DNA from: a virus
DNA length: 31,866 nucleotides
IMG/VR virus record: IMGVR_UViG_3300020020_000120
Span: 1-31,866 of that record
Strand: one strand, 5' to 3'
Shown: piece by piece, positions 530 to 29,071 of the stretch
Layout: each line of letters begins with the position of its first letter
Position numbering within the stretch: the stretch's first letter is position 1
Made by a program: the position numbers and the translations under genes
The notes under the pieces: generated by a model
Told to the model about the DNA's origin: nothing
The model's input: the letters and a program-made list of their open reading frames with translations, nothing else
The model's database searches: none

Positions 530-1072
530 CTAACAGAAAGGGTTTGGGACCCCTTCACATTTTATTTCTTCGTTGCAGTTACTTGTCTGTAAGTCCAAAA
601 GTACAAAGAAATCAATTGCAAAATAAAGTGTGTTGTCCCGGAAGTTGAACCGCCCTGTTGGGGCTTCTGAACGAAGTATTTCATCCGGGATGACTGTGAA
701 CTTTTGAATTCGGATAAAGCTTGTCTTCATGAATGCTTTCAGAAGGGTTGCAATTATGTCTTCATGGTTCCTGTCTTCTGAAGCGTTAAAGAATACAATC
801 TTGTGGGGAACGTTGAACCTGTACTTACGGGTATTACAACCCCCAATCTTTTCGGCATCAACAACGTCTGAAGGCCCGGTTGTCCTGCAATAGCAGCTGA
901 AGCCCTTGGTATCATCAAGACCAACATATTGATACCGGCCGTTGACCGGGGCAGCTGGTTTCAGTCCGCCTTTTTCAAGGGGCTTCAGTAATACGGAATG
1001 ATATATTCCGGTGACAAACTTAGTTTGAAGAATGTTCCTGAACAGTTCTTCAAGAATTGAATATCCTATCAT
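530..1072 (-). CDS. Hypothetical neck or tail-completion protein
   Basis: About 180 residues from the ATG at 1072 (MIGYSILEEL); a TTG at 1093 would add seven residues but ATG is preferred. The start overlaps the end of the upstream gene by 23 bases. No motif identifies a function. Contents that can be seen: a central cysteine cluster (CYC, GGC), a GRFNFRDN segment, and a cysteine-rich C-terminal tail (NCNEEIKCEG). Size and position next to the head-closure-like protein at 1050-1598 suggest a tail terminator or head-tail joining protein, by analogy with normal phage order. One internal copy of the AAACTWAGTTT word lies near codons 16-19 (LQTKF). Confidence 0.7.
   Translation of the reverse strand: MIGYSILEELFRNILQTKFVTGIYHSVLLKPLEKGGLKPAAPVNGRYQYVGLDDTKGFSCYCRTTGPSDVVDAEKIGGCNTRKYRFNVPHKIVFFNASEDRNHEDIIATLLKAFMKTSFIRIQKFTVIPDEILRSEAPTGRFNFRDNTLYFAIDFFVLLDLQTSNCNEEIKCEGVPNPFC
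1016..1026. repeat. AAACTWAGTTT word, internal copy
   Basis: Exact copy of the 11-base near-palindrome, inside the 530-1072 gene, encoding part of LQTKF. It extends to an 18-base identity (AAACTTAGTTTGAAGAAT on the plus strand) with the copy at 3454. Confidence 0.8.
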
Positions 1073-1598
1073 AAATCTGTTTTGTTGCTGCAATGACGTT
1101 TGTTCTTAATACTTCCCTTTCTTCATCTGACAGGGAAAAGATTTCAGCATTGATTTGCTTTTCTTGACCCCTTGCAATTTTGTACAGGTCTTCGTCTGGA
1201 ATGGAACACACAACCCTGATTGTACTTTCTTTTATCACAACGATCCCCCGGCGAAGTGTCCCGGTGAATTCTAAATCCTTGTACCTGATTTGACGGCCCT
1301 TCGCAACCCTTTTCTTTTCGTACTGTGAAAGCCGTATGTCATCAACCTGACCAAAAAGGAATTCAATCTTCCGTCCTTCAAATTGTTTCTTGCTGACTGA
1401 CTTCTTGGGACCCCTGTAAGACCCCAAGGAAACGTTTCCAGCATCTTCACCCCGGTTGAATATCCTGACCTGCATGGTTGCCTTCGCTGCATTCACACCA
1501 ATTACAAGGGCTTCTGAAAGGTCAATGCTTAGTGCTTTTTCCTTTATGACCTTGAAGCGTTCGATCAGTTCACCGATATTTGAAGTGAAGTCCGTCAT
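1050..1598 (-). CDS. Phage neck / virion morphogenesis-like protein
   Basis: A 182-residue protein whose middle has the layout of phage virion-morphogenesis or HK97-gp10-type neck proteins known from Bacteroidota prophages: an N-terminal helix, then a segment ending in MQVRIFNRGEDA and GSYRG, a basic stretch with KGRQIRYKDLEFTGTL, and a C-terminal helix. These blocks are what I recognise; I cannot run a profile search to confirm. The start ATG at 1598 overlaps the upstream stop in an ATGA arrangement, indicating translational coupling with the 1595-2599 gene. Likely role: head completion or tail attachment. Alternative: tail terminator. Confidence 0.6.
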   Translation of the reverse strand: MTDFTSNIGELIERFKVIKEKALSIDLSEALVIGVNAAKATMQVRIFNRGEDAGNVSLGSYRGPKKSVSKKQFEGRKIEFLFGQVDDIRLSQYEKKRVAKGRQIRYKDLEFTGTLRRGIVVIKESTIRVVCSIPDEDLYKIARGQEKQINAEIFSLSDEEREVLRTNVIAATKQIYDRIFNS

Positions 1599-2599
1599 CC
1601 TGTTGCGTATGCTGTTTGAATTTTACTTTCACAAATAATGCACTTGTCAGAACGGTTGTTCTTCAGGTACGTGTTGACAATGCTTCTTAAACCCATCATG
1701 TCCCCGGTCCCTGTCAGGCTTTCTTTATACCTTTTTCCGTATGTGCTTTTCGTTTCAATTTGTGGTTCATCATTGAAAGAAACTGTGTCATTGTTCCTGT
1801 CCGCTTGGTTTTTGTTTTCGTAATACAGTTCACCAATCTTGTACACCATTGCAAGCCCGAACGTGTTTTCTGCTTGGTGTATCATGTCACATACAACGGC
1901 ATCATAACTACACCCAATAGAAACACAGGGAATGAACCCGTATTGTGTTGATCCTTCAACCCCGGCAATATGGCCTGACAGTGAAACCGGGTTGTTGGCT
2001 GTTGCTGATCCCCCACAACCACAAGAAGCCCCTGTTTGACAGCTTATCTGACCAAGGCCAACACTGATATCAGTGAACCCGATCTTCACGCTTTTCTGTG
2101 AAGTGGTGTATGTCATTTTCAACGGCATCAACACACCGGCCTGAATTGCAACATCAAAATTTTGAACAGTGTCCCCGTCATCAAAATAAAGTTCATAGGT
2201 CCCCGTCACGTCTGCCAGTATTACCAGCTTTGAAATCTTCAGGGTCTTGTACCTGCTTGCAATGGAAGGCTTCACTATGATCCCGGCATTGGCCGTGTAC
2301 ACCGGGGAAAGAACACAGGATGAACAAACGTCCCCAATTGATCCGTTCATCTTGTATCCATTGTTCATCAAGAATTCAATATCTGACAGCATCATTCTTG
2401 CAGCTGTGTTGATCAGCTGGTTGCCAAAGTCCTTCCCGCTTGGGTTGCTTGCTTTGGTCATTGAAGAAAGCTTCTTCACATCAAGGCCCTGAACGTCTTC
2501 AATCCAAAAAGGATATTGGTCTTCAACTTCACATTGGGACCTGATACCAACAAGTGATTGCAAACATTGTGTTTTGTCAATAAAGGTTGTAGGGAACAT
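1595..2599 (-). CDS. Conserved Bacteroidota phage structural protein, function unknown
   Basis: A 334-residue protein. The N terminus has the pattern TTFID..QCL..LVGIR..C followed by a WIEDVQGLDVKKLSSM block, and the middle has a TGTYELYFDDGDTVQNFDVAIQAGVLMPLKM segment made of short beta strands (quoted here only as a location, about residues 130-160). I recall similar proteins in Bacteroidota prophages, without a proven function. It is cysteine-rich, with a CGCGG run near residue 190 and a CIICESK pair near the C terminus that could bind metal. Genes on both sides are head or neck genes, so a virion role is likely. It might be a capsid-associated or neck protein; I find no HK97-type capsid signature and do not call it the major capsid. 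Confidence 0.55.
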   Translation of the reverse strand: MFPTTFIDKTQCLQSLVGIRSQCEVEDQYPFWIEDVQGLDVKKLSSMTKASNPSGKDFGNQLINTAARMMLSDIEFLMNNGYKMNGSIGDVCSSCVLSPVYTANAGIIVKPSIASRYKTLKISKLVILADVTGTYELYFDDGDTVQNFDVAIQAGVLMPLKMTYTTSQKSVKIGFTDISVGLGQISCQTGASCGCGGSATANNPVSLSGHIAGVEGSTQYGFIPCVSIGCSYDAVVCDMIHQAENTFGLAMVYKIGELYYENKNQADRNNDTVSFNDEPQIETKSTYGKRYKESLTGTGDMMGLRSIVNTYLKNNRSDKCIICESKIQTAYATG

Positions 2600-2605
2600 G
2601 TTTCT

Positions 2606-2776
2606 TTATTTTTTTGGTTCAAATACAATTTTATTATCCTGTTCTTTCAATGGCTTGGAATGTTCGTTTGTCTGAAGAATTTCATCCGGTATCCCTTCAG
2701 GGAATGCAGTGCAACCCCCGGCTTCCGGCCGAAAGTGTTTGCATTCAAAACATATCAGGTTTACAGTGTCGGTCAT
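2606..2776 (-). CDS. Small cysteine-containing phage protein (CKHF...GIP..IL family)
   Basis: A 56-residue gene starting with an ATG that overlaps the stop of the MuF gene (ATGA), ending in TAA seven bases before the ATG of the next gene. The protein contains CFECKHF, then a third cysteine (GGC), AFPEGIPDEIL, a histidine, PLKEQ and IVFEP. This order of elements is one I recognise from small proteins that follow the head morphogenesis gene in many phages. Three cysteines and histidines could form a zinc site. Function is not known to me; the coupling to the MuF gene suggests a head-related or scaffolding role. It lies in what would otherwise look like a 173-base gap. Confidence 0.75.
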   Translation of the reverse strand: MTDTVNLICFECKHFRPEAGGCTAFPEGIPDEILQTNEHSKPLKEQDNKIVFEPKK

Positions 2777-4389
2777 TTCTTGAAATATTTATCAATCAAA
2801 AGTCCAATTTTTTTGGCATATAAGGAAGGTTCACTTAAAAGCTGGTATTCCGTGAAGCCTTCTGCCATGAATTCGTTTAAGTTAGTTGAAGCATACTTCC
2901 CAAGGAATATTGCTGAATACTTGTCATCCTGACCAAATGATTTGAAATAATTGAGGTCATTGAAATATTCTTTCCTTATTTCTTCAAGTTCAACAAAAAA
3001 CTTCTTCACTTCAATATTAAAATTCCCTTGTTGATTGATTGCAATGACGTGTGCAAATTCATGGGTTGTTATCGCAAGCTTTTCGTTTGCAGGATCAACA
3101 GGGGACTTGCTTCGCAGATAGTCCGCTTTTGAATTTGTCCTTGTCCTGTTTGCAATGTGATCCGTTTGGTCCCCAAAGTTTATATCTGTGAATTGCCTTC
3201 CATAACCGTAATGCTTAACAACACCGAAATAACGTGAAGTACTTTTCATGTGTATTTTGACAGGATATGTCTTGTCAGAAGCATCACTTAGTTTGTAGGC
3301 ATTTGACAACCGCTGTATTTCAGCAATCCGGGCATTGATATCTTCCAATGGTAGTGTTGAAGAAATTGTTACTGACTTCACAGGAAGGCCAAGGTTTCCT
3401 TCAATAACGTCCTTGATCAATTGCCTTGCTTCAGTCTTACTTCTTGCAGCTTTAAACTTAGTTTGAAGAATTGGGTCCGGCTTCGTATCAACCTTTAAAG
3501 GTTCCTGCTTGGCCTTTGGCTTTGGTTTTTCAATGTCTTCAACAACGATCATTGGGGTGAAGTCATGCCGGCAACCCCAATGCAGTTTATTCAACGGAAG
3601 GTTCTTGATCGTTGTTCCTTCAATCAACTTGGCCTTTGGATTTGTCCGGGCAATGTCAAGTATCTTTTCCCATTCCGAAAACTTCAGGTATCCGCTGGTA
3701 TCATGTGACTGATCAACCGCTTCGATACACTGCTTGGAACTTGTTTCAATCAATGATCCAGAAATGATATATCCAGTAAAAACAAAATCATTGACAAGCT
3801 GCTGATTGATTGCCCCGGTGTAACTATCAACAGCCATCATTGCCGTTTGATCAAGGTAGCTTTTCAACTTCCCTGACTTATCCTGTCCGCCAAGAATGTA
3901 GTTGTTCAGGACTTCTTTCACGTCCCGCATATTCGCCCCGGCAAGAATGTTCCTGAATACATTTTCCTTCAATGGTGCAGCGAAGTGTGCATTCAAGCCG
4001 TTGCCAGTATATTGCTGAATGACTTCATCAACAATGGTCTTTTGAACAGCTGTGACACCGGCCGTTTCAATGTTAAAGTTGTGGGCTGTTTTGTGGAATA
4101 GCTTGTTGTTCGTTTGGATCGTTGTAAGGTCCCCAAGAAACTTGCTTATCCTTGATTGATAGGTTGGGGCTGAATTAACGATATCAACAACAGCTTGAAT
4201 GAATTCATCCATGACCCGGGACAGGTCTTCATCAGTTGCAATTTCACCCTTCTTGACTTCAAGGTTTTCAATCAACCAATCAAATGAACCGTCAACAACA
4301 CTTCTTTCCAGTGTTGACAAAGAACCCCACCGGTCCACTGCAAGCCTTTTCAGCCTGTTCAAGTTTTCCAGATATTCGGTAATTGTCAT
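2773..4389 (-). CDS. MuF-type minor head protein fused to a zinc metallopeptidase-like domain
   Basis: A 538-residue, two-part protein. Residues about 1-285 look like a phage head-morphogenesis (MuF) protein: a helical N terminus, then DSYTGAINQQL at 188, IETSSKQC with C221, and LHWGCRHDF at 269-277, the conserved Cys-Arg-His end of MuF domains. A lysine/proline-rich linker follows (residues 287-305). The C-terminal part contains TTHEFAHVI, a HExxH zinc site at residues 443-447, and NEFMAEGF at 505-512, giving E506 as a likely third ligand. This is the arrangement of a gluzincin-type metallopeptidase. MuF proteins with enzymatic tails are known as phage polymorphic toxins; a prohead or peptidoglycan role is an alternative. 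ATGA overlaps on both sides tie it to portal and the small cysteine gene. Confidence 0.8.
   Translation of the reverse strand: MTITEYLENLNRLKRLAVDRWGSLSTLERSVVDGSFDWLIENLEVKKGEIATDEDLSRVMDEFIQAVVDIVNSAPTYQSRISKFLGDLTTIQTNNKLFHKTAHNFNIETAGVTAVQKTIVDEVIQQYTGNGLNAHFAAPLKENVFRNILAGANMRDVKEVLNNYILGGQDKSGKLKSYLDQTAMMAVDSYTGAINQQLVNDFVFTGYIISGSLIETSSKQCIEAVDQSHDTSGYLKFSEWEKILDIARTNPKAKLIEGTTIKNLPLNKLHWGCRHDFTPMIVVEDIEKPKPKAKQEPLKVDTKPDPILQTKFKAARSKTEARQLIKDVIEGNLGLPVKSVTISSTLPLEDINARIAEIQRLSNAYKLSDASDKTYPVKIHMKSTSRYFGVVKHYGYGRQFTDINFGDQTDHIANRTRTNSKADYLRSKSPVDPANEKLAITTHEFAHVIAINQQGNFNIEVKKFFVELEEIRKEYFNDLNYFKSFGQDDKYSAIFLGKYASTNLNEFMAEGFTEYQLLSEPSLYAKKIGLLIDKYFKK
3454..3464. repeat. AAACTWAGTTT word, internal copy
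   Basis: Exact 11-base copy inside the MuF fusion gene, at codons for LQTKF near the end of the linker. Shares 18 contiguous bases with the copy at 1016 and sits in the same reading phase. Confidence 0.8.
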
Positions 4390-6197
4390 TCACCTTGTTG
4401 TTGTTGTTCCAAAAGTTTTGTCTTTAAATCCTTCACCGGTTCCGGCTTGTATTGTTCCAAGTCCTTCTTCAACGTTGCAACAATTTGATTGGTGTCCTTT
4501 GCAAAAAGGTCCTTGTCATTGAAGAACATATTTTGAAGCGTTGGGAATGCGAAAACGTGAACAGCAAATTGTTCAGGGGTGACAATCATGTTTGCTTTAA
4601 AGCCGGCAATTTCTGCATTGGTATAGTAAAGCAATGGATCAACAACCTTTAGAACATCAATAAACTTCCTGACAGGGGATGACTGTGAAATGAACTTATT
4701 CACGAAGCTATCAACTTGACTTGCCTTCAGCATGACAGGAACGTTGGAAGAAAGAATGTCCTTCAACGCTGTGAATGCTTCCGATTCACTAAGGATTGCA
4801 TACGAATAAGGAATTTCAACACTTACCTGAACAGGGGAAGCAATCATGTAATTTTCAAAGCACTGAAGCACGAAGCGAAGTCTTTGAAAGAAGCACTGTC
4901 CAACTTTGGTCAGGAAGGAATACATGTCATCCCGGTCAATCTGTTTTGATTCTGCACTCTCAACATTACCCGTTGCAACACGTTGGGAAATGTAAACGGC
5001 CGTTTCAGCCATTTCCAAATAATCCTTCCATTCGCTTTTGGAATATTCAAGAATTGAAGTATCCGGGGTATAATATTTTACATCATCAACATCAAGGTGC
5101 TTGTTATCACTTTCCAAACCTTGTGGATCATACTGCTTGACATAAACCTTGTAAGGGGTTTGATTTCTTGTGTATCCCGATCCCCCACACTTCCCGCAAT
5201 ACTTCCTATCCCCGTATTCGGATTGATCAGCTTCCGTTTCACAAAGGATTTGCCCGTTCTGACAACCTTCAGCATCACAGGGGGTTTGTATTTCAGACAT
5301 TCTTGGGAAGCTGAACGTGAAGTTCACAGCTGTATGTTGTGAATGCTGAAGAAGGGCCAAGTTGCCAAATGATACAAAGGGGTTCAGGAAACTTTTGTTC
5401 ACGTTGTGCTTGGACTTTTCCCCGCCGGCATCAATGACAGGAAGGAATTCTTGCTTGAATTCAAATTCTTCAATGTCGTATTCCTTTGCATCTTCTGTCT
5501 GTGAAATCCTGATAAGGCCAAAGTCTTTCATGAAGACATGGTACACATACTTTTTAAACGTTGCCTTCATTTTCGGGGTGTATGTGTTTTCCCTTGCTTC
5601 CCGGAAATTGGGCCTGTTTATGGTTTGATCATAAAAGGTTTCACTCCAAACATGGACTTCTTCAATTTCATAATCAACAACGCTTTCTTTTTCACTGATA
5701 AAAATAACCATGTCGTTTGACAGGTATTTAATGTGACAGCTTTCAATGAAGACAACGGGGCCTGTACCATACTTTTCAACGTATTCCGGGGGATACACAA
5801 CGATCCGGGAATTGGCATCTTGCTTCAATGCAAACTTCACCCATTCATCAAGGAACCATGCAAAGAAGTTCATCCCGTCAAAGGTGTGTTCAGAAGTGTA
5901 TTGTAGGACCTTTTCAGACGCTTCTACCGTGTAGGAAGAATTTTTGAATATCCTGTTCACGTTATTGGCTGCACGTCCAAACGAAGCTTCTGTGACACTC
6001 TCAAAGGCAAGTATCCTGTTCTTCTTGCTTTCAGGGTGTTCGTTCGGGAACAACGTGTTCAGTTTATAAAATATTTCTCCTTGGCTGTGAACCTGTACGG
6101 CTTCAGCATACTTTTTAAAAAGTTTCCTTTGCCATTCAGGAAGCTTCTTCCCAATGACAAAGGAAACAAGGTCTTTTTCAGACTGAAATTGAGGCAT
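4386..6197 (-). CDS. Portal protein with inserted zinc-finger-like module
   Basis: A 603-residue protein assigned as portal from size, position directly before the MuF gene, and overall pattern: N-terminal helical region, a beta-rich segment with YPPEYVEKYG, a wing-like region, a central segment followed by a long stem-like helix (about residues 400-450, with AESKQIDRDDMYSFL), and a Gln-rich C terminus (LEQQQQ). Residues 307-341 hold a cysteine module: CDAEGC, a further C319, then CGKCGGSGY, reminiscent of DnaJ-type CxxCxGxG zinc fingers. I recall cysteine modules in portal-like proteins of Bacteroidota phages. Portals form the dodecameric ring through which DNA enters and leaves the head. 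Start ATG at 6197 lies one base from an AAACTWAGTTT site; the stop overlaps the MuF start. Confidence 0.75.
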   Translation of the reverse strand: MPQFQSEKDLVSFVIGKKLPEWQRKLFKKYAEAVQVHSQGEIFYKLNTLFPNEHPESKKNRILAFESVTEASFGRAANNVNRIFKNSSYTVEASEKVLQYTSEHTFDGMNFFAWFLDEWVKFALKQDANSRIVVYPPEYVEKYGTGPVVFIESCHIKYLSNDMVIFISEKESVVDYEIEEVHVWSETFYDQTINRPNFREARENTYTPKMKATFKKYVYHVFMKDFGLIRISQTEDAKEYDIEEFEFKQEFLPVIDAGGEKSKHNVNKSFLNPFVSFGNLALLQHSQHTAVNFTFSFPRMSEIQTPCDAEGCQNGQILCETEADQSEYGDRKYCGKCGGSGYTRNQTPYKVYVKQYDPQGLESDNKHLDVDDVKYYTPDTSILEYSKSEWKDYLEMAETAVYISQRVATGNVESAESKQIDRDDMYSFLTKVGQCFFQRLRFVLQCFENYMIASPVQVSVEIPYSYAILSESEAFTALKDILSSNVPVMLKASQVDSFVNKFISQSSPVRKFIDVLKVVDPLLYYTNAEIAGFKANMIVTPEQFAVHVFAFPTLQNMFFNDKDLFAKDTNQIVATLKKDLEQYKPEPVKDLKTKLLEQQQQGE

Positions 6198-6198
6198 G

Positions 6199-6209
6199 AA
6201 ACTAAGTTT
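6199..6209. promoter_or_regulatory. AAACTWAGTTT start-associated site before portal
   Basis: On the coding strand AAACTTAGTTT, then C, then the portal ATG. It fills the short gap between the 6216-6854 gene and portal. Function inferred as a protein binding site. Confidence 0.6.
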
Positions 6210-6980: not shown

Positions 6981-8414
6981 TTATTCGCCTTCAAACGGGG
7001 GCGGGTCCCCACATGATAAAAGACAGGTATCCCGGGCCAATCCAACAATAGTATCAGCTGGAATTGAAAGGCTGGTTGCTATTGGTCGAAGTGTCACCGT
7101 TGTTGGTGTTGTTCCAGATTTGTAATACTTGAATAATACCAATGCCGGGTTGGGACTTGAAGCAATAATTGTGTCAATCGGTTCTGAACAATTGGTACAA
7201 AGGAACCTTTCACATTCATAGTTGTACAACGTTGGTTCAGTTTCACAATCCCCGAATTGTTGTGCAGGGGACCAAGGTGAATAATTATCTTCTTCGCAGC
7301 TGATCCGCCAACGTATGACATAACAAGTGTCAGGGTCAATGTCGTTAATAACGAATTGGAAAGGGGGAATGTCATCCGGTTCATCAATCGAATTCCCGCT
7401 ATCAACAGGGACCCCGGAAATAAGTTCCTGTACTTCCCAATAAACAACGGCCCCCGGGGGAATTACCCCGGTCAATGTTCCTGTCCATGTTCCTTCAAGT
7501 TCTTCAACGGTTAAGACAAGATCAGGAAGAAGACAGGGTTCCGGGGGAACTTCAGGAAGAACACAGTCCGCCGGCTTGCATCCAAATACCTGCTTGCATT
7601 CATTGTCAAATATCATGTCCATCTTCCAAAGCTTTGCATCCTTACTGATCATTGCCACTTCTTGACCGTCTGCAAGCTTGTATTCAACACTGTCAATCTG
7701 AACATTTCCCCGGGCAAATATTCCAATTAAAAAGTCCTTGTAGAATGTAGGAACAAGTTCAAATTCAAGAAGCCATTCTTGCACAACGTTCGACTTGTAA
7801 ACCTTTTTATTGTTGAATGCAGAAAAAGTCAACCTGTTCTTTTGCGATTCAATTGAACCCATACGAACGAAGCCGTTGTGAATATATCTGTAAACGGGTG
7901 AACCAAGATATTCTTCAGTAGTTGGGAAGCCGTAATAAATCCCATTGCAATCAACGGCATCCGTTCCAACTTCTTCGTTCGGATAGCAAGCACGAAGCCG
8001 GGTCAATGTTTCACACAATGGAAATTCATACTGTTCCGAATAATAAACATAATCAAGGCCATCAAGTGTAAAAGTGACCTTGAAGAAAAATCTATTGTAT
8101 GTCACACCAACCGGGGGGGTAACAACCAACCCACCAAAGACCCCGTACCATTGCTCTAAATGATCCTGACCAATAACGGAAGAACTTGCAACAGCTGTTC
8201 CAACGTTGTCAATGTCACAAACGTTCATGACCTCAATTGCAACTGTATCCGGTTCCCCGGGCAGGTTTGACAGGTCAGCAAAAAGAACAATATCACTGAA
8301 CACGTTGACAGGTACATAAAAAGGCTTTTGACAAGCTTTATTTCTTGTACAGTTATACTGAAGTTCCGTGAATGGTTTTTCGGACACACCTTGCCCGGCA
8401 TATAGTAGTTTCAT
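6981..8414 (-). CDS. Tail tip / baseplate protein with fibronectin-III-like domain
   Basis: A 477-residue protein, coupled by an ATGA overlap to the 8411-10408 tail tip gene. The N-terminal 300 residues are beta-rich and unfamiliar, with short blocks such as SEQYEFPLCET and an NRLTFSAFNNKKVYK segment. Residues about 305-395 look like a fibronectin-III-type beta sandwich (LTVEELEGTW..TGVIPPGAVVYWEV, then CYVIRWRISC...YSPWSPAQQF), a fold common in phage tail and receptor-binding proteins. The remainder is cysteine-rich, with CERFLCTNC and a final LLSCGDPPP. Extracellular, disulfide or metal stabilisation is possible. Likely a distal tail component contacting the host surface. A terminator follows. 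Confidence 0.55.
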   Translation of the reverse strand: MKLLYAGQGVSEKPFTELQYNCTRNKACQKPFYVPVNVFSDIVLFADLSNLPGEPDTVAIEVMNVCDIDNVGTAVASSSVIGQDHLEQWYGVFGGLVVTPPVGVTYNRFFFKVTFTLDGLDYVYYSEQYEFPLCETLTRLRACYPNEEVGTDAVDCNGIYYGFPTTEEYLGSPVYRYIHNGFVRMGSIESQKNRLTFSAFNNKKVYKSNVVQEWLLEFELVPTFYKDFLIGIFARGNVQIDSVEYKLADGQEVAMISKDAKLWKMDMIFDNECKQVFGCKPADCVLPEVPPEPCLLPDLVLTVEELEGTWTGTLTGVIPPGAVVYWEVQELISGVPVDSGNSIDEPDDIPPFQFVINDIDPDTCYVIRWRISCEEDNYSPWSPAQQFGDCETEPTLYNYECERFLCTNCSEPIDTIIASSPNPALVLFKYYKSGTTPTTVTLRPIATSLSIPADTIVGLARDTCLLSCGDPPPFEGE

Positions 8415-10408
8415 TTCAGAACGTTTCCTTTTAAGTTGATGAAGCCGTTTTCATAATCAATTTCAAAATTAGTGATCCGTCCCCGGATATACCGTGTACC
8501 TCTTTTTTCCAGCATGACAACGGCCCCTATTTGTGCAAATGTATCTGACCAAGCCCCAAGCCTGTCAAGCCATTCACAGCAAAGGTCAATAGTCCCGGAC
8601 CATTCCTGATTAATTATAGGATTGAACAGGGGATTGTCATATTCGTGAAACCGATCAAACAAGTTGTCCTTAAAAAAGCTATCAAGGTACATGGGATAGT
8701 TGTACACCACTTCAACCGATCCCCCCGGTTCAAACACCCCGCCGGCCCCGTCATACGTTGGGTGTTCTTCCCAATATTCTTTGTCATCAACATTGTACTT
8801 TTCATAAATCTCAATGTCATCAAGATCAACCTTCACAACCTTTGCACTGTCCATTGCAGTAGTACGATCCCAAAGAAGCAACCGGGGTGTATTTATTTCT
8901 GAACTGGAAACCCTGACCATTCCATTCAGATTTGAATTGTTGAAGAAATCATTCATGTAGTTGTTTGTGATCGTATAACCCAACGCACATAATCCAGCTA
9001 CCAATGCAGCTGTGACCGGCATGGATGCCATGAACATTTGACCAAGGCCAACAACTATTGCGGCAAGGGCAATTGTACGGCCAAGCTTTACACCTTCTTC
9101 AAGGAAGTCTTCTGAACTTCCATCATTATGAAATGAAGTGGAAGAAAACGCAAATGATTTCGTCACGTTCCCTTCAAGCATTGGATTGTTTGCTTCGCCG
9201 TCAAAGTCAACAATGTCGTTGTATCTCCACTTCAATTCATTTGAACAGGTGTCTTGTGGATCAATGGTGTATTGGTAGTTGCCGTATGCAGCCTTTTTGT
9301 CCCCGTTGAAAGTATAGCGTTTGAAGTATAACTTATCCGCCCCGGGTGCAGTGAAATCATATATTGGGCTTTGCTGATCAAAGAAAGACTTGGGTTTGAA
9401 TACAAGTTTATTGTTCGGTGTAACATACCATTCAGCATTAAAAACGTCCTTCAATTGGTTCAGGAACTTACTGAAGGGAAGAACGCTTCTGTTGTCCCAA
9501 ATGAATTTTGTTGAGGGTGAAGAATAATCCCCGCCGTCAAATTCCTTCAATGATGTTGAAGCCGGCCAAAAAAAACAAAGGTCCCTGTAAGCATTGCCGG
9601 GATTATCATCAAACATGGTGTCATAAGTATAACCATATTTGTCACACATGTTTTCAATGTACGTCCTGATCAGTGGTGACGGACAGAAGTAAGTAAATCC
9701 AAGGCAACGGGATATCCAGCGTTTGCCTTCTGTTAATGCAATCAGGATACCTATTGAAAGAATGCCGGCCAAGTATATCAGGAACGCAAAGACAGCCAAG
9801 TAAAACTTGGGCTTCTTTTCAACGATCATTTGAAACGTTGGATGATCCTTGGTGCTTGTCCCGTCCTTGTTAAACCAATTTTGCCAATTGTCTTCAATCG
9901 GTGTTTTATCAAACGCATGAATGACATTATCCATTTCACGAAGTGGCATGTCCACAATGCAGGGTTCTTCATCCGGGGCATAATCCGTATTATCAAGCTT
10001 GATTTCAAATATCCTGTAATTCTTTTGACAGTCTTCATCCCTTATCAGGACTTCAACAGCGTTCAACAGCTGACAGGCATCCGTCATAAGCCAATCGTAA
10101 ATGAATTGGAATGCAGTTGAAAAGAAGCGAAGGTTTGCGGTCAATCCTTTTTGGTAGTTGGACCCGGCTTCATTGGTCTGCACGTTCCCGCCTTCACTTG
10201 CATCACTTGTCACAGCTGACCATGTTAGTTTGAACTTATCCAAACCTTCTGTGTGCTCGGTCATCTCAACCCAATCAGGAACATCAACGGTCCCGTCAAC
10301 ATAAACTACTGTTCCATCAGGAAGGCATTGAATAATGACAGGTTCAAGAATATCGTTGTCCCTGTACAGTTGCTTTTGCCGGAAGAAAATCTTCAATCTT
10401 GTTTGCAT
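8411..10408 (-). CDS. Large tail tip protein with two hydrophobic segments
   Basis: About 665 residues from ATG at 10408 (MQTRLKIFF); a TTG at 10414 would add two residues. It directly follows the tape measure, where distal tail and tail-associated proteins lie. The opening (a short RLKIFF strand, IIQCLPDGT, later TANLRFFSTAFQFIYDWL) and the middle block WYVTPNNKLVFKP resemble large tail proteins of Bacteroidota phages. Two hydrophobic stretches stand out: residues about 202-225 (FYLAVFAFLIYLAGILSIG) and about 445-480 (ALAAIVVGLGQMF..., VTAALVAGLCALGY). Such segments in a virion protein could insert in the host membrane at infection. The stop overlaps the next start (ATGA). The exact tail role (Dit/Tal-like) is inferred. 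Confidence 0.55.
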   Translation of the reverse strand: MQTRLKIFFRQKQLYRDNDILEPVIIQCLPDGTVVYVDGTVDVPDWVEMTEHTEGLDKFKLTWSAVTSDASEGGNVQTNEAGSNYQKGLTANLRFFSTAFQFIYDWLMTDACQLLNAVEVLIRDEDCQKNYRIFEIKLDNTDYAPDEEPCIVDMPLREMDNVIHAFDKTPIEDNWQNWFNKDGTSTKDHPTFQMIVEKKPKFYLAVFAFLIYLAGILSIGILIALTEGKRWISRCLGFTYFCPSPLIRTYIENMCDKYGYTYDTMFDDNPGNAYRDLCFFWPASTSLKEFDGGDYSSPSTKFIWDNRSVLPFSKFLNQLKDVFNAEWYVTPNNKLVFKPKSFFDQQSPIYDFTAPGADKLYFKRYTFNGDKKAAYGNYQYTIDPQDTCSNELKWRYNDIVDFDGEANNPMLEGNVTKSFAFSSTSFHNDGSSEDFLEEGVKLGRTIALAAIVVGLGQMFMASMPVTAALVAGLCALGYTITNNYMNDFFNNSNLNGMVRVSSSEINTPRLLLWDRTTAMDSAKVVKVDLDDIEIYEKYNVDDKEYWEEHPTYDGAGGVFEPGGSVEVVYNYPMYLDSFFKDNLFDRFHEYDNPLFNPIINQEWSGTIDLCCEWLDRLGAWSDTFAQIGAVVMLEKRGTRYIRGRITNFEIDYENGFINLKGNVLK

Positions 10409-10413
10409 ACTCA

Positions 10414-10424
10414 AAACTAAGTTT
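10414..10424. promoter_or_regulatory. AAACTWAGTTT start-associated site before tail tip gene
   Basis: On the coding strand GTTAAACTTAGTTTTGAGTATG: the word begins inside the TAA stop of the tape measure gene and ends five bases before the ATG at 10408. Confidence 0.6.
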
Positions 10425-13400
10425 AACTTCTATTCCGCAATAACCGTCTTTTCCTTGCTTTTGAAATGGATGCTTCAAAACCGTTTTCATCAAGGTTCAC
10501 ATTTATTCCCATTTCATCAAGGCCAACAACAACCCGGTTCATTGTGTCATTCAATTCTTCAACCCGGCCAATCAATTCATAGTTGTCCGTACTAAGCTTT
10601 CCATCAGTGGCAACAGAAAGCCTGTCAAAGTCAACAACTGGAATGTCCGTCTTTGGATACCCCTGTACAAACGAATTAAGGGCATCCGGGGGAATGGTCC
10701 TGTTGTGGATTGCTGAAAGGGTATCCCAATAGTCCTGATTTTCACGGGCCGTAACAACCCTTTCCCCAACGTGCAACCGGGCCTTCACTTGGTCCTTCCC
10801 GGGCTTAACGCCCCGGCCGGACACATATTCCTCTCCTTCATAGAACCCCGGTTCTTGGGGCTGTAATGAGTTCACAAAGCTATATGCCGCACCAATGGCT
10901 GAAATGACGGCCGCAACAGCGGCAATTGCAGCCAACGGGCTTCCTGAACGGGCCGCTTGTGCAATAGCGGATATTGCCGCAACAATCGCATTGGACGTTG
11001 CAAGGGCGTTATTGATTGCAATTTCTTTACGGGCTGCATCTTCCCGCTTCTTTTCCAGTTCATCCAATCGCTTCTGTTCCATTTCCAGATATTCGGCATT
11101 GCCATTTTCAGCAAGTTGCCGGGCATTTTCAACCCGGGTATTCTGAAGGGCAATGGACCTGTCTAAAGCCGCCGCTTCAGCTGCATTGACTTGCTGCCAA
11201 AATTGGATGACGGAATTGGCAAGATCATTCACAGCCCTGACATACTTCAGTATGTTGTCAAGCCGTGTCTTTTCGTCTGCATTTTTATCGTCTGAAGAAC
11301 CGGTTGCAATGTCCCGGCGAAGCGTTGATATCTGTCCCCGCAATATGTCCCTTTGTTTTTCCAGCTGTTCAAGCTGCTTGGGGTCCGTTGTTGCTGCCAG
11401 CTGTTTATTGATCCGGTCAAGTTGATCTTCCGCTTCAGCAAGCTGAATGTCCCGCCTTATCTTGGCTTCACGCTTCAGGATAGCTGTCAGGTTCTTTTGA
11501 TACTGCTCGTAGTTAATCTTTCCTTCCATGAACAACCCTGTCTGTTCCCGGATCAATTTTGTTGTGTCTTCGTTTTCCTTTAAAGCTTCCTGATCAAACT
11601 TAGTTTTAGCCTTGTTCAGTGTATCGTTGAAAGTCTTAAATGCAAGATCAATTTCAGCATTGGCCTTGGCTTGGGCTGCTTGATCCAATAAGTCCCCGAA
11701 CATGAATGCCGCAATCATTTTCTTCCGTCTTGCCAATGCCGGGGAAAGAAGGCCCTTGCTGGTTTCTTCATCAATTTGTTTCATGAAGTCAGCTGAACGT
11801 TTCTTAATCTGTTCAACCGTTTCCTGATAGTTCACATCAATCTGTTCCCGTTCCCGCTGGAATTCGTCACGCAGGTTATTGATCCTTTTTGTTTCAGCTT
11901 CCAACGTTGCCTGAAGAATGGCATCATTTACTTTGTCCAATGCTTCCGTCCGCTTCTTCCTGAATTCTTCAAGGCTTTTTGAAAGTTCAACATCATTGAT
12001 TTGTTTCAGGACAGCGTTCAAAAGATCAGCTTGTTCAACTGTAAGTTTTTTATCCTTCAACAGCTTGGCAATTTCAAACAGTTCCTTGTTGAATTGTGCT
12101 TCAAACTTTTCACGAATAAGCCCTTCGCTTTGGAAGACGGAAGCTGAAGCACTTGCCAACCTTGCCTGAAGTTCCAGAAGCTTTTGACGGAATACGTTTT
12201 CAATTTCCTTTGCACCCTTGGTCCCTGCACCCCTGTCAACTGTTGTCAATCCTTCAGCTGTAATCAACGGGGATAGTAATGATCCAAGTTCATCAAGACT
12301 TTTCTTGGCAAGGTCCCGGGTATTGATTAATGAAAATATTCGTGCCTGTTCATCCGTGTAAATGGTGTTGATCTTCTTACCCTGTTCAACACGTCTGTCA
12401 ATGTTCTTGTCAACAGCCTTGCTGTAATTATCTAAACCCTGTACACTTGTTGCCAGTGTTTGTTGTTCTTGTTCATAATTCTGTTTTGCATTGGCAAGAA
12501 TTTGTTCTTCTGTAAGGTTTGCACGTTTCAGGGCTTCGTTCACTTTCAGCTGTGCATCTACAAACTTGGTGCTTTCTTCAGTAAGCTTTGAAAGGGCTGC
12601 AACGGATACAGCCCGTTGAAGGATCAGTTTATTTTGTTTTTCGATTTGGGTATTGATCAGGCCCAAATTATCAATCTGCTTTAAATCAATTTTATTGGTT
12701 TCATCAGCTGTTTTGTTGTATTCCTTCGCAATCTTAACACGTTCCGCTGCTGGAATATTTGTGTCATTCAACTTCTGTTTGAATATTTCAAGCTTTGCAA
12801 CATCGTCACCAACTGACTTGGCCGCTGAAGAAGTTACTTCATCAAGTATTTTTTGTTGCTCCTTAAACTTGTCCAATTCTTTTTGTACGTCAAACAGGTT
12901 GTCAACGAAAGATATCAATGCCGGTATTGCTTGGCTTATGATCCCGCCGGCAAAGCCTGACAGTAATCCAAATGCAGCATCCTTGGCAAAGTTTCCAAAC
13001 TTCTTGATCCCGTCCGCTGCAATGGCATTCACATTGGTGAACTTGCCAACAGCTTTGTTCACTTCGTTGCTGTTTTTAATCTGTTCCCTTTGGACCCGGG
13101 AATATTCCCTTGATACTTCATTTACTTTTTTCTGTGCAACAGTCAGCTTGGCTTGGCTGGAAACAAGTTCATCATATTCCTTGTCAAGAGCATCAACTTT
13201 CTTCCTGTTTTCTTCAACTTCATTTGCGTTCAATGCAAGGGACTTGGAAAGCTTATCCGCTTCCTTCCGGTTTTCCTTCATAGCATCGGTTGTTTCCTTG
13301 ATGCTTTGCTTTAACAACGCTTCAGCTTCCCGGGCCTTGTCCAAGGAATCAAGAACGTCTTCAACGCCCTGCTTTACCGGGGTTCCATCAAATTCAGCCC

Positions 13401-13431: not shown

Positions 13432-13442
13432 AAACTAAGTTT
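13432..13442. promoter_or_regulatory. AAACTWAGTTT start-associated site touching the tape measure ATG
   Basis: On the coding strand AAACTTAGTTTATG, the word abutting the start codon. Upstream at 13446-13453 the coding strand reads TACATTTG, a match to the Bacteroidota -7 element TAnnTTTG, but no TTG is found at the right distance, so a promoter is only possible. Confidence 0.6.
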
Positions 13443-13452
13443 CACCAAATGT

Positions 13453-13488
13453 AAAAAGAAAAACCCGGTGTGACGGTTCACCGGGCTT
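13453..13488 (-). terminator. Rho-independent terminator upstream of tape measure
   Basis: On the minus strand CCCGGTG-AACCGTCA-CACCGGG followed by TTTTTCTTTTT: a 7-bp GC-rich stem and U tract. It lies between the stop of the 13515 gene and the tape measure start, so tape measure expression needs readthrough, antitermination or a start site downstream of it. Confidence 0.85.
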
Positions 13489-15805: not shown

Positions 15806-15820
15806 TGACGAATATACAAA

Positions 15821-16010: not shown

Positions 16011-16038
16011 CAAATGTAGGAAAAATATTAATTCACAA
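16011..16038 (-). promoter_or_regulatory. Candidate Bacteroidota-type promoter
   Basis: On the minus strand TTG (16036-16038), 17 bases, then TACATTTG (16011-16018), matching the flavobacterial consensus TTG-N17-23-TAnnTTTG. It overlaps the last codons of the fibre gene. The expected start near 16004 would produce the noncoding interval that ends at the 15821-15846 terminator, or, with readthrough, the muramidase. Confidence 0.4.
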
Positions 16039-20355: not shown

Positions 20356-20837
20356 AGCCTGTTTTTGTATGTCAGCAAACAACAACCAAGAAATTGCCGT
20401 TGCTGGTATAGGGTAACAACCTTCTTGTGTATTTTCTGAAGGTCATGTTGGTATTTGTGGATCATTGGGGCCTTCTTCTTTAGGACCAAGAATTGAACTG
20501 AAGGATCAAGTGACATTTCAACCCACATCAACCCGGCCCAATTTGGTATTTCAGGAACTTGGATCAATCCAGCTGGAACAACATAATAGATTTGATTTGG
20601 TACACGGCCCGGCCAAAGATGAACATTGTCAATCCTGAACTTCTTCCCCTTTCGTGCATCCCGTTTGAAGTCTGCCCGGCTAATCTTTACTTCATACTCA
20701 ATGACAATGCCGGTCTTGCTCACTGAAATCATATCCTGTTGCCCGGCAAATAAATGGTTCACATTGGGACAAACAAGTTGATGCCCGGCAATAACCCGGT
20801 CTTTTCCTATCACTGCAACAATACTTGCTTCTGTCAT
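20352..20837 (-). CDS. PD-(D/E)XK nuclease-like protein (MmcB-like)
   Basis: A 161-residue protein. D35 followed by IEYEVKISRADFKRD (E49, K51) gives the D...ExK core of the PD-(D/E)XK nuclease fold, and the later segment IYYVVPAGLIQVPEIPNWAGLMWV (about residues 83-106) is the pattern of small nuclease-like proteins related to MmcB. It is coupled by ATGA overlaps to the gene before and to large terminase after it. Possible roles: trimming DNA ends during packaging, recombination-linked nuclease, or anti-host nuclease. The fold call rests on motifs seen by eye. Confidence 0.65.
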   Translation of the reverse strand: MTEASIVAVIGKDRVIAGHQLVCPNVNHLFAGQQDMISVSKTGIVIEYEVKISRADFKRDARKGKKFRIDNVHLWPGRVPNQIYYVVPAGLIQVPEIPNWAGLMWVEMSLDPSVQFLVLKKKAPMIHKYQHDLQKIHKKVVTLYQQRQFLGCCLLTYKNRL

Positions 20838-21082
20838 GCTTCCTTGAATGAAATTGCTGTTGTGAAATGTGTTATCTGTCCTTTGTTGTTCATGATAAGC
20901 CCCCTGCTTGCCAGTTCAGCTGTCAGGGCTGCACAATATTCGTATTCTTCTTGTTCAAGGAAGTGGGGAAGGGCTTCACTAATTTCCTGATCCGTCATAT
21001 CCTTAGTGACATACAAAGTCATAAGGACCCCTTCAATTTCCTTGGCTTCAAATCGCTGAACATATTGCCTTGGCATGTACAT
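20834..21082 (-). CDS. Small hypothetical protein in packaging block
   Basis: An 82-residue mostly helical, acidic protein, not recognised. It contains TKDMTDQEISEALPHFLEQEEYEYCAAL (about residues 26-53), a run of two helices, and ASRGLIMNNKGQITHF. The start (MYMPRQYV) touches an AAACTWAGTTT site; a second Met is at residue 3. It overlaps the nuclease-like gene by ATGA. Confidence 0.65.
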   Translation of the reverse strand: MYMPRQYVQRFEAKEIEGVLMTLYVTKDMTDQEISEALPHFLEQEEYEYCAALTAELASRGLIMNNKGQITHFTTAISFKEA

Positions 21083-21093
21083 AAACTTAGTTT
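21083..21093. promoter_or_regulatory. AAACTWAGTTT start-associated site, overlapping a stop codon
   Basis: Coding strand AAACTAAGTTTATG: the TAA of the upstream gene lies inside the word and the ATG at 21082 follows directly. Confidence 0.6.
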
Positions 21094-21332
21094 GAATCGG
21101 AAAGCCTTTGGACCTTCAGGGCTTCAATGATCTTGTTGAATAATTCGACCGGGATGACATTGCAGGTATTACCACAACCACAAGGACAGAACATTTGTTG
21201 AACTTCCTTGTCCCTGATCTTTACTGCAACAATTGGATGAAGTTCATCTACGTTGACAAAGCCCTGAAGAAGTCTGTTGTAGGCAACAGTGACGGTCAAG
21301 AATTCGGGTTGTTGAATTTTAAGGGTGTGCAT
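21087..21332 (-). CDS. Small hypothetical protein with cysteine cluster
   Basis: An 81-residue protein, not recognised. Residues 48-56 read FCPCGCGNTC, four closely spaced cysteines likely to bind zinc or an iron-sulfur cluster. The rest is one amphipathic strand region (LKIQQPEFLTVTVAYN) and a C-terminal helix (VELFNKIIEALKVQ). It lies between the two terminase subunits, so a packaging or DNA-binding role is possible. Leader: CCTAAAAAATAAATCAATG. Confidence 0.65.
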   Translation of the reverse strand: MHTLKIQQPEFLTVTVAYNRLLQGFVNVDELHPIVAVKIRDKEVQQMFCPCGCGNTCNVIPVELFNKIIEALKVQRLSDSN

Positions 21333-21946: not shown

Positions 21947-21999
21947 GCTTTGATTGTGTGTGTTCCGATTATAAAACTACCAAAAAACGGCAAAAAGAA

Positions 22000-22010
22000 A
22001 AACTTAGTTT
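22000..22010. promoter_or_regulatory. AAACTWAGTTT site upstream of small terminase
   Basis: Coding strand AAACTAAGTTT, 53 bases upstream of the terS ATG, the only intergenic copy not next to a start codon. The 113-base gap 21947-22059 shows no gene and no clear hairpin. Confidence 0.55.
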
Positions 22011-22404: not shown

Positions 22405-22637
22405 AAAACGGGATTTACTTTTTTCTTTTCTTTTGGCATCCAAACGCAAAGCTTGGGAAGCCAAAACTTTTCTGCATCCATGTAGTACGGCAACAGTTCC
22501 CTTCTTTTCACTATCCGCTTCTTCAGCCCCCACCATGTCCATACTTCAATGGTCAGTAAGTATCCTATACCATTTGCTTCAAGGGATTGGTACGGCTCAA
22601 TTTGATAATCCAGCAATCTGTATTTTCTGAATGTCAT
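22401..22637 (-). CDS. Small hypothetical protein
   Basis: A 78-residue basic protein with five tryptophans (for example VWTWWGLKK near residue 32), not recognised. Starts and ends in ATGA overlaps with its neighbours, so it is translated as part of the short-gene array before the packaging block. Confidence 0.55.
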   Translation of the reverse strand: MTFRKYRLLDYQIEPYQSLEANGIGYLLTIEVWTWWGLKKRIVKRRELLPYYMDAEKFWLPKLCVWMPKEKKKVNPVL

Positions 22638-22855
22638 ATAAAATTTATTTTAACCTTACCCTTTACTTTCCACTTGGCAACAATTACCCGGTCGGTCCAA
22701 GCAAGATCAAGGTTCCACCTTCTTGTTTCTTTCCAAAAGTCCTGTTCTTCAAAATATACCGGGTCGGGTTTGTGCATAAACTTCAATTGATAAAAAGTCA
22801 ATTGTTGCCCGGACTGAATCATATATTCATAAATAGCCATCAATGCTGTTCCCAT
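22634..22855 (-). CDS. Small hypothetical protein
   Basis: A 73-residue protein, not recognised, with a helix (ALMAIYEYMIQSGQ) followed by aromatic-rich sequence and a basic beta-like C terminus (VIVAKWKVKGKVKI). The ATG directly follows an AAACTWAGTTT site; the stop overlaps the next start. Confidence 0.55.
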   Translation of the reverse strand: MGTALMAIYEYMIQSGQQLTFYQLKFMHKPDPVYFEEQDFWKETRRWNLDLAWTDRVIVAKWKVKGKVKINFI

Positions 22856-22866
22856 AAACTTAGTTT
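22856..22866. promoter_or_regulatory. AAACTWAGTTT start-associated site, overlapping a stop codon
   Basis: Coding strand AAACTAAGTTTATG, same arrangement as at 21083: upstream TAA inside the word, ATG directly after it. Confidence 0.6.
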
Positions 22867-23123
22867 GCTTTTTGTTTTAATTCGATCCGGCCAATTGTCC
22901 CGGCATTTATATCGTAATCAGCAAAGAACCTCCCGTTCCAAAATATGACATTCTTCAGGACCAAATACAGCCCGGTGAAACGGTCAACAGTTCCTTCAAA
23001 GAATGGTTCCCGGCTTAACTTCCTGCCCTCTTTTGTGGACAGCTGCCCGTTGGTCCAAATCCTGACTTCCTTCCCCTGTATCAAAGGAAGCATCAATTGA
23101 ATTTCCTGTTGCTTCTTTGTCAT
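22860..23123 (-). CDS. Small hypothetical protein
   Basis: An 87-residue protein with a small beta-barrel-like pattern (LIQGKEVRIWTNG, FEGTVDRFTGLYLVLKNV, GTIGRIELK), similar in outline to OB or Sm-like folds, but no family is recognised. ATGA overlap with the gene before it. A nucleic-acid-binding role would be a guess. Confidence 0.55.
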   Translation of the reverse strand: MTKKQQEIQLMLPLIQGKEVRIWTNGQLSTKEGRKLSREPFFEGTVDRFTGLYLVLKNVIFWNGRFFADYDINAGTIGRIELKQKAN

Positions 23124-26136: not shown

Positions 26137-26325
26137 TTATAGGTTCCCTGTCAAGTTTAAATGTTCCCTGATTTCATTGTACACATGGTTCAACGCCCCT
26201 TCCTTGCTGTACTTTTCAGACCTATAAGCATCAATCAACAATAAGATGGACTTCATTTTTTCAACATGGTGTCCTTCTAATTCCTTTAGCCGTTGAACCT
26301 GCTGTACAATGTCTTCAGTTTTCAT
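26137..26325 (-). CDS. Small hypothetical helical protein
   Basis: A 62-residue all-helical protein (MKTEDIVQQVQRLKELEGHHVEKMKSI..), likely a small coiled coil. Not recognised. Starts in an ATGA overlap with the ParB-like gene. Confidence 0.55.
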   Translation of the reverse strand: MKTEDIVQQVQRLKELEGHHVEKMKSILLLIDAYRSEKYSKEGALNHVYNEIREHLNLTGNL

Positions 26326-26951
26326 TTTGGTTTGACTTTATGTGCTTTTAAATATTCCGTGACTATGAAATACATGGCATTGGCATTGTCATTACTGTTG
26401 CCAGTATTCGCAAACTTAGTTTTGTTCAGTTCCTTGGATATCTTCAAAGCTTGCTTGACCTTGGCCGCTTGTGAATTGATGAACTGGAAAGCAACCGTTG
26501 TTTGATTGGCCTTGTCAGCATCTTCAATCTTGTCCTTCATCCCCGGGGGATCAGTTACGATGGACCCCCAAGCTTTCAGGGCCGGGTATTCTTCAACCAA
26601 GGCTTCAACAACATCAGCATCCAACACAATGTTCTTCTGTGCAACAACATTGTCAGCCAAAGCCATCTTGTAAAATTCGGTTGTATTGCTTTTGATATCC
26701 GTCCGCTTTACTGCAATGATTTCATGACCGTCCGTTTCAATGATCCTGACATTTTCCATCCCAATCGCCGCCGCCCCTTCAACAGTTCCGTTCCCGGCAA
26801 TTATATGGTTGTCATTTGAAATAAGAATTGAACGGCCAAAACCATTTTCCCGAACGGAATTTTCCAACAATGTAGTTCCATAAGGTGAATGCTTGTTAGC
26901 ATTTTTTTGATCCAAGTTCAATGACTTGATCGTTGTTTTCTTTTCAGCCAT
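26322..26951 (-). CDS. ParB/sulfiredoxin-like domain protein
   Basis: A 209-residue protein. Residues about 10-82 match the ParB N-terminal (ParB/Srx) fold: LDQKNANKHSPYG, LLENSVRENGFGRSILISN, and HIIAGNGTVEGAAAIGMENV, the last equivalent to the ParB box 'vIaG..R..Aa...G'. No HTH follows in the same chain; the C-terminal part is helical and unassigned. In phages such proteins act as CTPase-type DNA-binding regulators or accompany DNA-modification and packaging genes. The gene overlaps by eight bases with the tiny HTH gene before it. A copy of AAACTWAGTTT lies within it (NKTKF). Confidence 0.75.
   Translation of the reverse strand: MAEKKTTIKSLNLDQKNANKHSPYGTTLLENSVRENGFGRSILISNDNHIIAGNGTVEGAAAIGMENVRIIETDGHEIIAVKRTDIKSNTTEFYKMALADNVVAQKNIVLDADVVEALVEEYPALKAWGSIVTDPPGMKDKIEDADKANQTTVAFQFINSQAAKVKQALKISKELNKTKFANTGNSNDNANAMYFIVTEYLKAHKVKPK
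26412..26422. repeat. AAACTWAGTTT word, internal copy
   Basis: Exact 11-base copy inside the ParB-like gene, coding for TKF in LNKTKFAN, same reading phase as the other internal copies. Confidence 0.75.
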
Positions 26952-27877: not shown

Positions 27878-27997
27878 TTAAGAATTCGCCTTTGAAGAAT
27901 GCTTTTTCTTTTCGTCTTTCACTCCCCGTTGATATCCCAATAAGGAACCTATCACATAAGCCAAGGCAATTGGAATATAAATTTCTAAAAAGTCCAT
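27878..27997 (-). CDS. Small single-helix membrane protein
   Basis: A 39-residue gene too short for usual ORF lists. MDFLEIYIPIALAYVIGSLLG forms one membrane helix, followed by a basic cytoplasmic-type tail (YQRGVKDEKKKHSSK). Leader TTAAAATACACAAGATG is a good A-rich start. Lies directly after the exonuclease gene. Function unknown; small membrane proteins of this kind in phages include inhibitors and exclusion factors. Confidence 0.55.
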   Translation of the reverse strand: MDFLEIYIPIALAYVIGSLLGYQRGVKDEKKKHSSKANS

Positions 27998-28007
27998 CTT
28001 GTGTATT

Positions 28008-29060
28008 TTAAGATAACAAAATCATTTGTGCAACTTCCTTGGTGTCCTTGGTGAAGTCTTTTGTCAGCATCCAATTCAGGAAACCTTTTTCACTCTTTGC
28101 CGGCTTGTGAATGTGGGGACCAAATGCAAACACGACTTCCCCGGCTTCGTTCTTTTCAAACTTACCAGCAAGATCAATAATTTCCTTGCCGTAATTACTA
28201 TACAAAGCAATTTCCTTCATCGTCTTTGGCAGGTCTTCATACATGGCAAGCTGCTGACAAAATATATTCTTGGTTTCAATGATATCCTGTTCAGCGGAAT
28301 GTGCTTCTTCATGATCCCGGCCAAGATAGAACTTGACACCGGCCGAAAGCGTTCGTTGTTCCTTCTGAACAAATATGTTCCTTACATCAATCAAGTTCAC
28401 CTTCTTCCAATCCCATTGCAGACCAACCCGGGCAAAGCTGAAGTATAAAAGTGGAACGTCAAACCTTGTTGAATTAAAGCCGGCAATATCACAGCCCTGA
28501 ATGTGTTCAAGTAGTGCTTTTGATATCTGCACAAATGCCGGGGCTTCCTGAACGTCTTCATCAGTGATGCCATGCACATCACTTGCTTCCTTTGGAATTG
28601 GAACAGGGGGCTTGATCAACATGGTCCTGATTTCTTCCGTTCCATCCGGGGAAATTTTAAGTACACATATTTCAACAATGAAATCCTTTTCAACATCGGT
28701 TCCAGTTGTTTCAAGGTCAATGAAGCAAATTGGTCTTTCCAGTTCAGGAAGGAAGGAACCAACAATTTCTTTCTTGTGAACTAAATGGTTCCTGTGATCG
28801 TTGAAACACTTTAAATACCCGGCCGTGAACCCTCTTTCAAAAGACAGCCTTTCATCAGGTCCACTGAATTCACCCCGGTCTTCCCTGATCTTGCCCAAGT
28901 GGTCAACAATTGCATCCCCAACAATTAAGATTGGTTCTTTGGCTTCTTCATCAATGATCCGCTTCAGGTCCTTGAATTGAACGCACTCTTTGAGATAGCC
29001 GGCTTCCGTTTCAAAGCCGTATTCAATAAGTTCCTGAATTAATCTTTGTTTTTCTGTCAT
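28008..29060 (-). CDS. DEDDh 3'-5' exonuclease (DnaQ-like)
   Basis: A 350-residue protein from ATG at 29060 (MTEKQRLIQE), which an AAACTWAGTTT site touches; a longer reading would overlap the upstream gene by about 137 bases. ExoI motif CFIDLETTGTD gives D115 and E117; ExoII GFNSTRFDVP gives D201; ExoIII AHSAEQDIIET gives H254 and D259. These are the five residues of the DEDDh family, which binds two metal ions and removes nucleotides from 3' ends. The first 105 residues and the C-terminal 60 are unassigned. Role in phage: proofreading, recombination or nucleotide recycling. Confidence 0.85.
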   Translation of the reverse strand: MTEKQRLIQELIEYGFETEAGYLKECVQFKDLKRIIDEEAKEPILIVGDAIVDHLGKIREDRGEFSGPDERLSFERGFTAGYLKCFNDHRNHLVHKKEIVGSFLPELERPICFIDLETTGTDVEKDFIVEICVLKISPDGTEEIRTMLIKPPVPIPKEASDVHGITDEDVQEAPAFVQISKALLEHIQGCDIAGFNSTRFDVPLLYFSFARVGLQWDWKKVNLIDVRNIFVQKEQRTLSAGVKFYLGRDHEEAHSAEQDIIETKNIFCQQLAMYEDLPKTMKEIALYSNYGKEIIDLAGKFEKNEAGEVVFAFGPHIHKPAKSEKGFLNWMLTKDFTKDTKEVAQMILLS

Positions 29061-29071
29061 AAACTTAGTTT
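29061..29071. promoter_or_regulatory. AAACTWAGTTT start-associated site, overlapping a stop codon
   Basis: Coding strand AAACTAAGTTTATG before the exonuclease gene; the TAA of the upstream gene is inside the word. Confidence 0.6.

Follow-up and report, generated by a model that had tools for sequence, protein, structure and literature searches.

What reads a short word that recurs, letter for letter, along a phage genome? The question is raised by a virus contig of 31,866 bases (IMG/VR record IMGVR_UViG_3300020020_000120; the whole stretch is called the window here), in which the 11-base word AAACTWAGTTT is found in 13 exact copies, against a mean of 0.05 (maximum 1) in dinucleotide shuffles. 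A first-pass annotation, made from the letters of the window, had reported these copies with well under one expected, and had put forward a phage-encoded DNA-binding protein as the simplest idea and a translational signal as the alternative; all 13 coordinates were confirmed, and so was the low expectation. Of the classes of explanation, a DNA-binding protein encoded by the phage has the best support: the word forms a perfect dyad around a W centre, its enrichment is restricted to one lineage, it is conserved at homologous gene junctions and, at some genes, its distance from promoter elements is constant. Within this class we tentatively favour, on sequence evidence, a symmetric site for a dimer of a phage-encoded regulator, for which the best candidate is an orphan ParB/KorB-like protein encoded in the early operon, which probably acts together with an XRE protein.

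The window phage is a virus of Bacteroidota-type bacteria. Phages of Bacteroidota are among those with a terminase large subunit similar to its own; the genes assigned with PHROGs include a tape measure, an endolysin, the terminase subunits, an exonuclease and a NinG-like gene, and coding regions make up 93% of the sequence. Relatives were taken from IMG/VR, namely G1 (48.8 kb, terminase 71% identical to that of the window), G2 (42.6 kb, 64%), G3 (50.2 kb, 63%) and a 5.1-kb fragment. Gene order is common to the window, G1, G2 and G3, and G3 is probably complete because it ends in a 127-base terminal repeat. No match was obtained when 84,980 prokaryote genomes were searched for a prophage or host with portal and terminase profiles, and profile scans for further relatives with ParB and YqaJ yielded zero new genomes.

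The annotation had named equal density in shuffles with the same codons, or loss of the sites in close relatives, as findings that would speak against its proposal. In synonymous-codon shuffles the mean was 0.18 fully coding copies against 5 observed in the window, and exact copies number 13 in the window, 8 in G1, 5 in G2, 15 in G3 and 1 in the 5.1-kb fragment; AAACTWAGTTT is the top enriched palindrome in each of the window, G1, G2 and G3. A single one-mismatch site was found in the window against 1.4 expected (AAAGTAAGTTT, 29978 to 29988, listed without strand), and it may be there by chance. The word was absent from six cultured Bacteroidota phages (0 copies), from more distant relatives and from the relative G9, and no comparable palindrome was seen in PBb001, G6, G7, G8 or G9. 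A further 35 unrelated viral contigs, which had been chosen for carrying one promoter-plus-word string, hold one word each (two in a single contig) with no enrichment, so they were used as a control and not as new members. AAACTWAGTTT is enriched solely in this phage lineage, and among the literature matches listed for the letters of the word none concerns phages.

The form of the site is that of a perfect dyad around a W centre, the centre base being A in 26 and T in 15 of the 41 exact sites of the window, G1, G2 and G3; in these four genomes AACTWAGTT occurs 55 times and AACTSAGTT 0 times. Extending the motif over the 41 exact sites revealed no notable information beyond the 11 bases. Since the centre is W only, nothing outside the 11 bases is informative and places are kept while their flanks have diverged, a symmetric DNA-binding dimer is the best explanation.

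The conservation of places was seen at orthologous gene boundaries, where each of the six genome pairs has sites in common (P between 0.03 and <3.4e-4). The homologous places keeping the word are the portal start, the terS promoter, the tape-measure start, the gene after the tape measure, the dnaB end, a position upstream of a capsid-like gene, and the ParB operon. Around these homologous sites the flanks have diverged, and the gap to the ATG differs as well (at the portal gene 1, 3 and 5 nt). In the window (where the 13 sites were listed without strand, the genes around them reading on the minus strand), the portal site lies at 6199 to 6209, with the ATG of the portal-like gene (4386 to 6197) 1 nt after the word, and this junction site is kept in two relatives and one fragment. 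The site at 10414 to 10424 overlaps the stop of the tape measure gene, the ATG (10408) of the next tail gene following 5 nt on, and is kept in G1.

At some genes the word also stands at a constant distance from a promoter element, for which we used the Bacteroidota -7 consensus TAHHTTTG and its numbering (PMC6847099). The word at 13432 to 13442 abuts the tape-measure ATG, and 3 nt upstream of it lies TACATTTG (13446 to 13453, minus strand), which fits the consensus; G3 has the same order of TACATTTG, 3 nt and word. From this gap and the published numbering, the word would occupy about -1 to +10 of the predicted tape-measure promoter. At terS the arrangement is word, 20 nt, -7-like element in both the window and G3, the element being TAGTTTTA in the window (21972 to 21979, minus strand, the predicted terS promoter) and TACATTTG in G3; because of this 20-nt gap the word (22000 to 22010, kept in G2 and G3) is placed at predicted -43 to -33 of terS. 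The endolysin-like gene (15271 to 15793) has its ATG 2 nt after the word at 15795 to 15805, and TATATTCG (15809 to 15816, minus strand), a near match to the -7 element, lies 3 nt upstream of that word, behind a terminator-like hairpin. At these three window promoters the word thus lies over the predicted start or the -33 region. The -7 element as a general companion of the word was dropped, being present at a minority of sites.

The sites show a preference for gene junctions. Eight of the 13 window sites lie outside coding regions or across their ends, and exact sites prefer junctions in the window (P 1e-4), G1 (3.5e-4) and G3 (0.02), often spanning the stop of one gene and touching the start of the next. 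The annotation had seen seven sites 0-5 bases before an ATG, one just past an ATG, one 53 bases upstream of terS and four inside genes, and this distribution was reproduced, the seven gaps being 0, 0, 0, 0, 1, 2 and 5 bases. The association with start codons is strong in the window and G1 (an ATG 0-7 nt downstream of the word at 7 of 13 and 6 of 8 sites) and weak in G2 and G3 (1 of 5 and 5 of 15); no ATG follows at this distance in 22 of the 41 exact sites. The association looks to be mainly a reflection of the junction preference. A feature absent from the annotation is that the window sites are spaced more evenly than by chance (P ~0.001), and in G1 the eight exact sites have a spacing coefficient of variation of 0.14 (P ~5e-6). 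Compared with random gene junctions, the evenness persists (P 0.0009 in the window, 0 of 50,000 for the exact sites of G1, and 6e-5 in G3 with near-sites included). It is unusual for sites to be spaced evenly along the genome of a virus, and this would hint at whole-genome coverage, not at control of single promoters.

Which protein might read such a site? The early region is sequenced in three relatives (G1, G2 and G3), and in each of them one operon encodes a ParB protein of ~285 residues and, directly downstream, an XRE protein of ~80 residues. The word lies ~42 nt upstream of the first called gene of this operon in G1 and G3; in G2 it lies farther upstream, heading a longer gene run that includes the operon. 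The ParB protein matches TIGR00180 (E ~1e-15, slightly under the curated cut-off in the member shown), and its profile matches to solved structures in the PDB are ParB, Spo0J, Noc and KorB. The GxRRxRA motif of the ParB N-terminal fold is present as GHRRxRA in the proteins of all three phages, and the central helix-turn-helix (HTH) is found by PF17762 HTH_ParB over its cut-off in each. An AlphaFold model of low confidence (pLDDT 65), from which the fold class alone was taken, matched the folds of ParB, Spo0J, Noc, KorB and the KorB-KorA complex. No ParA was found with PF13614 in G1, G2 or G3, and no tyrosine integrase with PF00589 in the same three phages, serine integrases not having been searched. 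In phages whose words are identical, ParB shows somewhat less variation in its recognition helix than XRE does, which slightly favours ParB as the binder. A second ParB-N-like protein (26322 to 26951 in the window; phrog_620, ParB-like) is conserved in all four phages, and no recognised DNA-binding domain was found in it.

The nearest known case for the proposed mechanism would be the KorB-KorA operators of RK2. KorB is a CTP-dependent clamp that loads at the palindromic OB ATTTTAGCGGCTAAAAG, and KorA, a small DNA-binding partner, stalls it so that promoters near and far are shut (PMC11790492). As in RK2, a ParB-family regulator and an adjacent small DNA-binding protein are encoded on one mobile element, the site is a short palindrome with a single-base centre that occurs both near promoters and distant from them, and the modelled fold of the phage ParB matches KorB and the KorB-KorA complex. 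The two differ in that RK2 is a plasmid and not a phage, that here no ParA was found and the partner is an XRE (HTH_3) protein, that the site is AAACTWAGTTT with a W centre instead of the TTTAGCGGCTAAA type, and that the phage sites are evenly spaced and intercistronic; silencing here would follow by analogy. By this comparison, the evenly spread sites would be where ParB loads onto the phage genome; whether sliding or staying put, it would then block or pace transcription. It may occlude the start or the -33 region at the tape-measure, lysin and terS promoters, serve as a roadblock or use the word as a loading point at junctions within operons, and regulate its own production through the word upstream of the ParB-XRE operon. 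Evenly placed loading sites could, as suggested by KorB, let a clamp cover the entire phage genome. The identity of the binder, its CTP-dependent sliding and both the direction and the timing of its effect are our inferences. It is possible, if doubtful, that in a phage without a detectable integrase or ParA an orphan ParB clamp and an XRE protein regulate genome-wide, through near-evenly placed exact 11-bp sites, and that loading and removal of the clamp time the genes; if true, the whole viral genome would be covered. ParB-like proteins that lack a ParA partner (orphans) are common among phages and mobile elements, and for most of them neither a DNA site nor a role is known (PMC12704722). 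Here one orphan ParB and a candidate partner are paired with a candidate site that is conserved and sharply defined, which makes the orphan ParB question directly testable.

Several observations weigh against the favoured reading. The ParB-XRE region is missing from the window contig, and the pair is attributed to the window phage from its relatives; the phage ParB is ParA-less; and many junction sites have no visible promoter. In the profile alignment the catalytic glutamate position reads T-N in the phage ParB against E-N in M. xanthus ParB, with a gap adjacent, and CTP hydrolysis may thus be altered or absent. G9 has neither ParB nor XRE gene and no word, yet its contig may be cut at that locus, which makes the co-occurrence of operon and word only suggestive. 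Finally, the XRE protein, sharing the operon, could be the sole binder. This is a serious rival, and one we regard as possible but rather unlikely: XRE alone would read the word, which would then be an operator of the classical repressor or stoperator type, and ParB would not be a sequence reader. Every word-positive relative has one HTH_3 gene and G9, G6 and G7 have none, the word lies upstream of the operon of XRE, and small XRE dimers commonly read palindromes. However, the predicted recognition helix of XRE varies at its first positions (TALTISKL, SRLTIGKI and TYLTISKL) in three phages with an identical word, and near-exactness and genome-wide even spacing are, to our knowledge, unusual for operators of small XRE proteins. 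If ParB does bind, it might instead arrange, protect or segregate the genome from a parS-like centromere or organising site, with no main role in transcription. The even placement of sites round the genome and the family of the candidate binder agree with this improbable alternative, whereas the lack of a detected ParA does not, and the junction preference and fixed distances to promoter elements at some genes are not needed for organisation alone.

It is highly improbable that the word serves a host factor, recombination or DNA modification and just happens to be frequent here: G1 encodes a cytosine methyltransferase-like protein (motifs recognised by eye) and G3 a Mom-family protein (L028:8690-9379), so DNA modification is present in the group, but the six cultured Bacteroidota phages lack the word and other contigs have a single copy, the promoter geometry of the word is fixed, and Chi-type signals are asymmetric, unlike this symmetric word. 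The translational alternative, a messenger RNA signal at starts as suggested for the start-associated sequences (SAS) of Cluster K mycobacteriophages, is disfavoured and comes out as very improbable. The frequent ATG after the word in the window and G1 would suit it, but the scarcity of this arrangement in G2 and G3 does not. Sites also occur within genes, at positions around the predicted start of transcription and, at terS, 33-43 bases ahead of that start, and the distance to the ATG changes at the same portal gene. Moreover, the bases before the ATG are often TTT, unlike the A at -3 and -6 that favours initiation in Flavobacterium (PMC6847099).

The annotation had likened the placement to mycobacteriophage stoperators and start-associated sequences, a fair comparison as to what the word works like. 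Cluster A stoperators are likewise a short word in many copies across a phage genome, largely intergenic and presumably recognised by a phage regulator; they are asymmetric and read by a monomeric immunity repressor (PMC9283540), whereas here the palindrome is perfect and no tyrosine integrase was detected. The Cluster K SAS, 5'-GGGATAGGAGCCC, is an asymmetric word, found mostly in one orientation, and part of it can pair with 16S rRNA (PMC3203893). It resembles the present word in lying directly upstream of many starts and in being kept between relatives, and differs from it in that the word is palindromic and occurs also inside genes and at promoters. As for parS and Noc sites, a palindromic loading site and a ParB/Noc family protein are shared features. 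However, parS sites cluster near an origin, whereas here a different word is found at 5-15 exact sites genome-wide, with no ParA found.

The remaining window sites are as follows. Three hold the stop of one gene and touch the ATG of the next: 21083 to 21093 (stop of 21087 to 21332, ATG of 20834 to 21082), 22856 to 22866 (stop of 22860 to 23123, ATG of 22634 to 22855) and 29061 to 29071 (stop of 29065 to 29523, ATG at 29060 of the exonuclease-like gene 28008 to 29060). For the open reading frames 28008-29201 and 8411-10414, the likely true starts are 29060 and 10408, right behind the word, and not those of the longest frame. The site just past an ATG (18348 to 18358) covers codons 3-6 of a gene with a signal peptide (16028 to 18364), beginning 6 bases past the A of the ATG. 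The four internal sites lie at 1016 to 1026 in the gene 530 to ~1072 (minus strand; codons ACT AAG TTT), at 3454 to 3464 in the gene 2773 to 4389, at 11596 to 11606 in the tape measure gene (10423 to 13431) and at 26412 to 26422 in the ParB-N-like gene.

Palindromes were also noted in two other phages that have an orphan ParB. In Agrobacterium phage 7-7-1 (L050, 17274-29109), which also encodes a ParB-like protein, seven TACAANNNNNTTGTA palindromes, mostly TACAAATNATTTGTA, lie between -35-like and -10-like elements, and Burkholderia phage AH2 (L049, 5954-12976) has five GACACN9GTGTC palindromes, one of them ~90 bases upstream of a gp27-ParB pair. Their binder being unknown, these promoter palindromes were not used as evidence. 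In G1, TAAANNTTTA occurs 10 times, mostly directly before starts, and in G2 ACCTTAAAATT stands directly before starts 5 times; the two are perhaps a second, translational, start-associated element. Both ends of the G1 contig (L011:1-150 and L013:8505-8778) lie within a single 18-bp tandem array (GGGCATCCATAGGG + 4), which encodes hexapeptide-like repeats, and the contig is thus probably a circle opened within the array.

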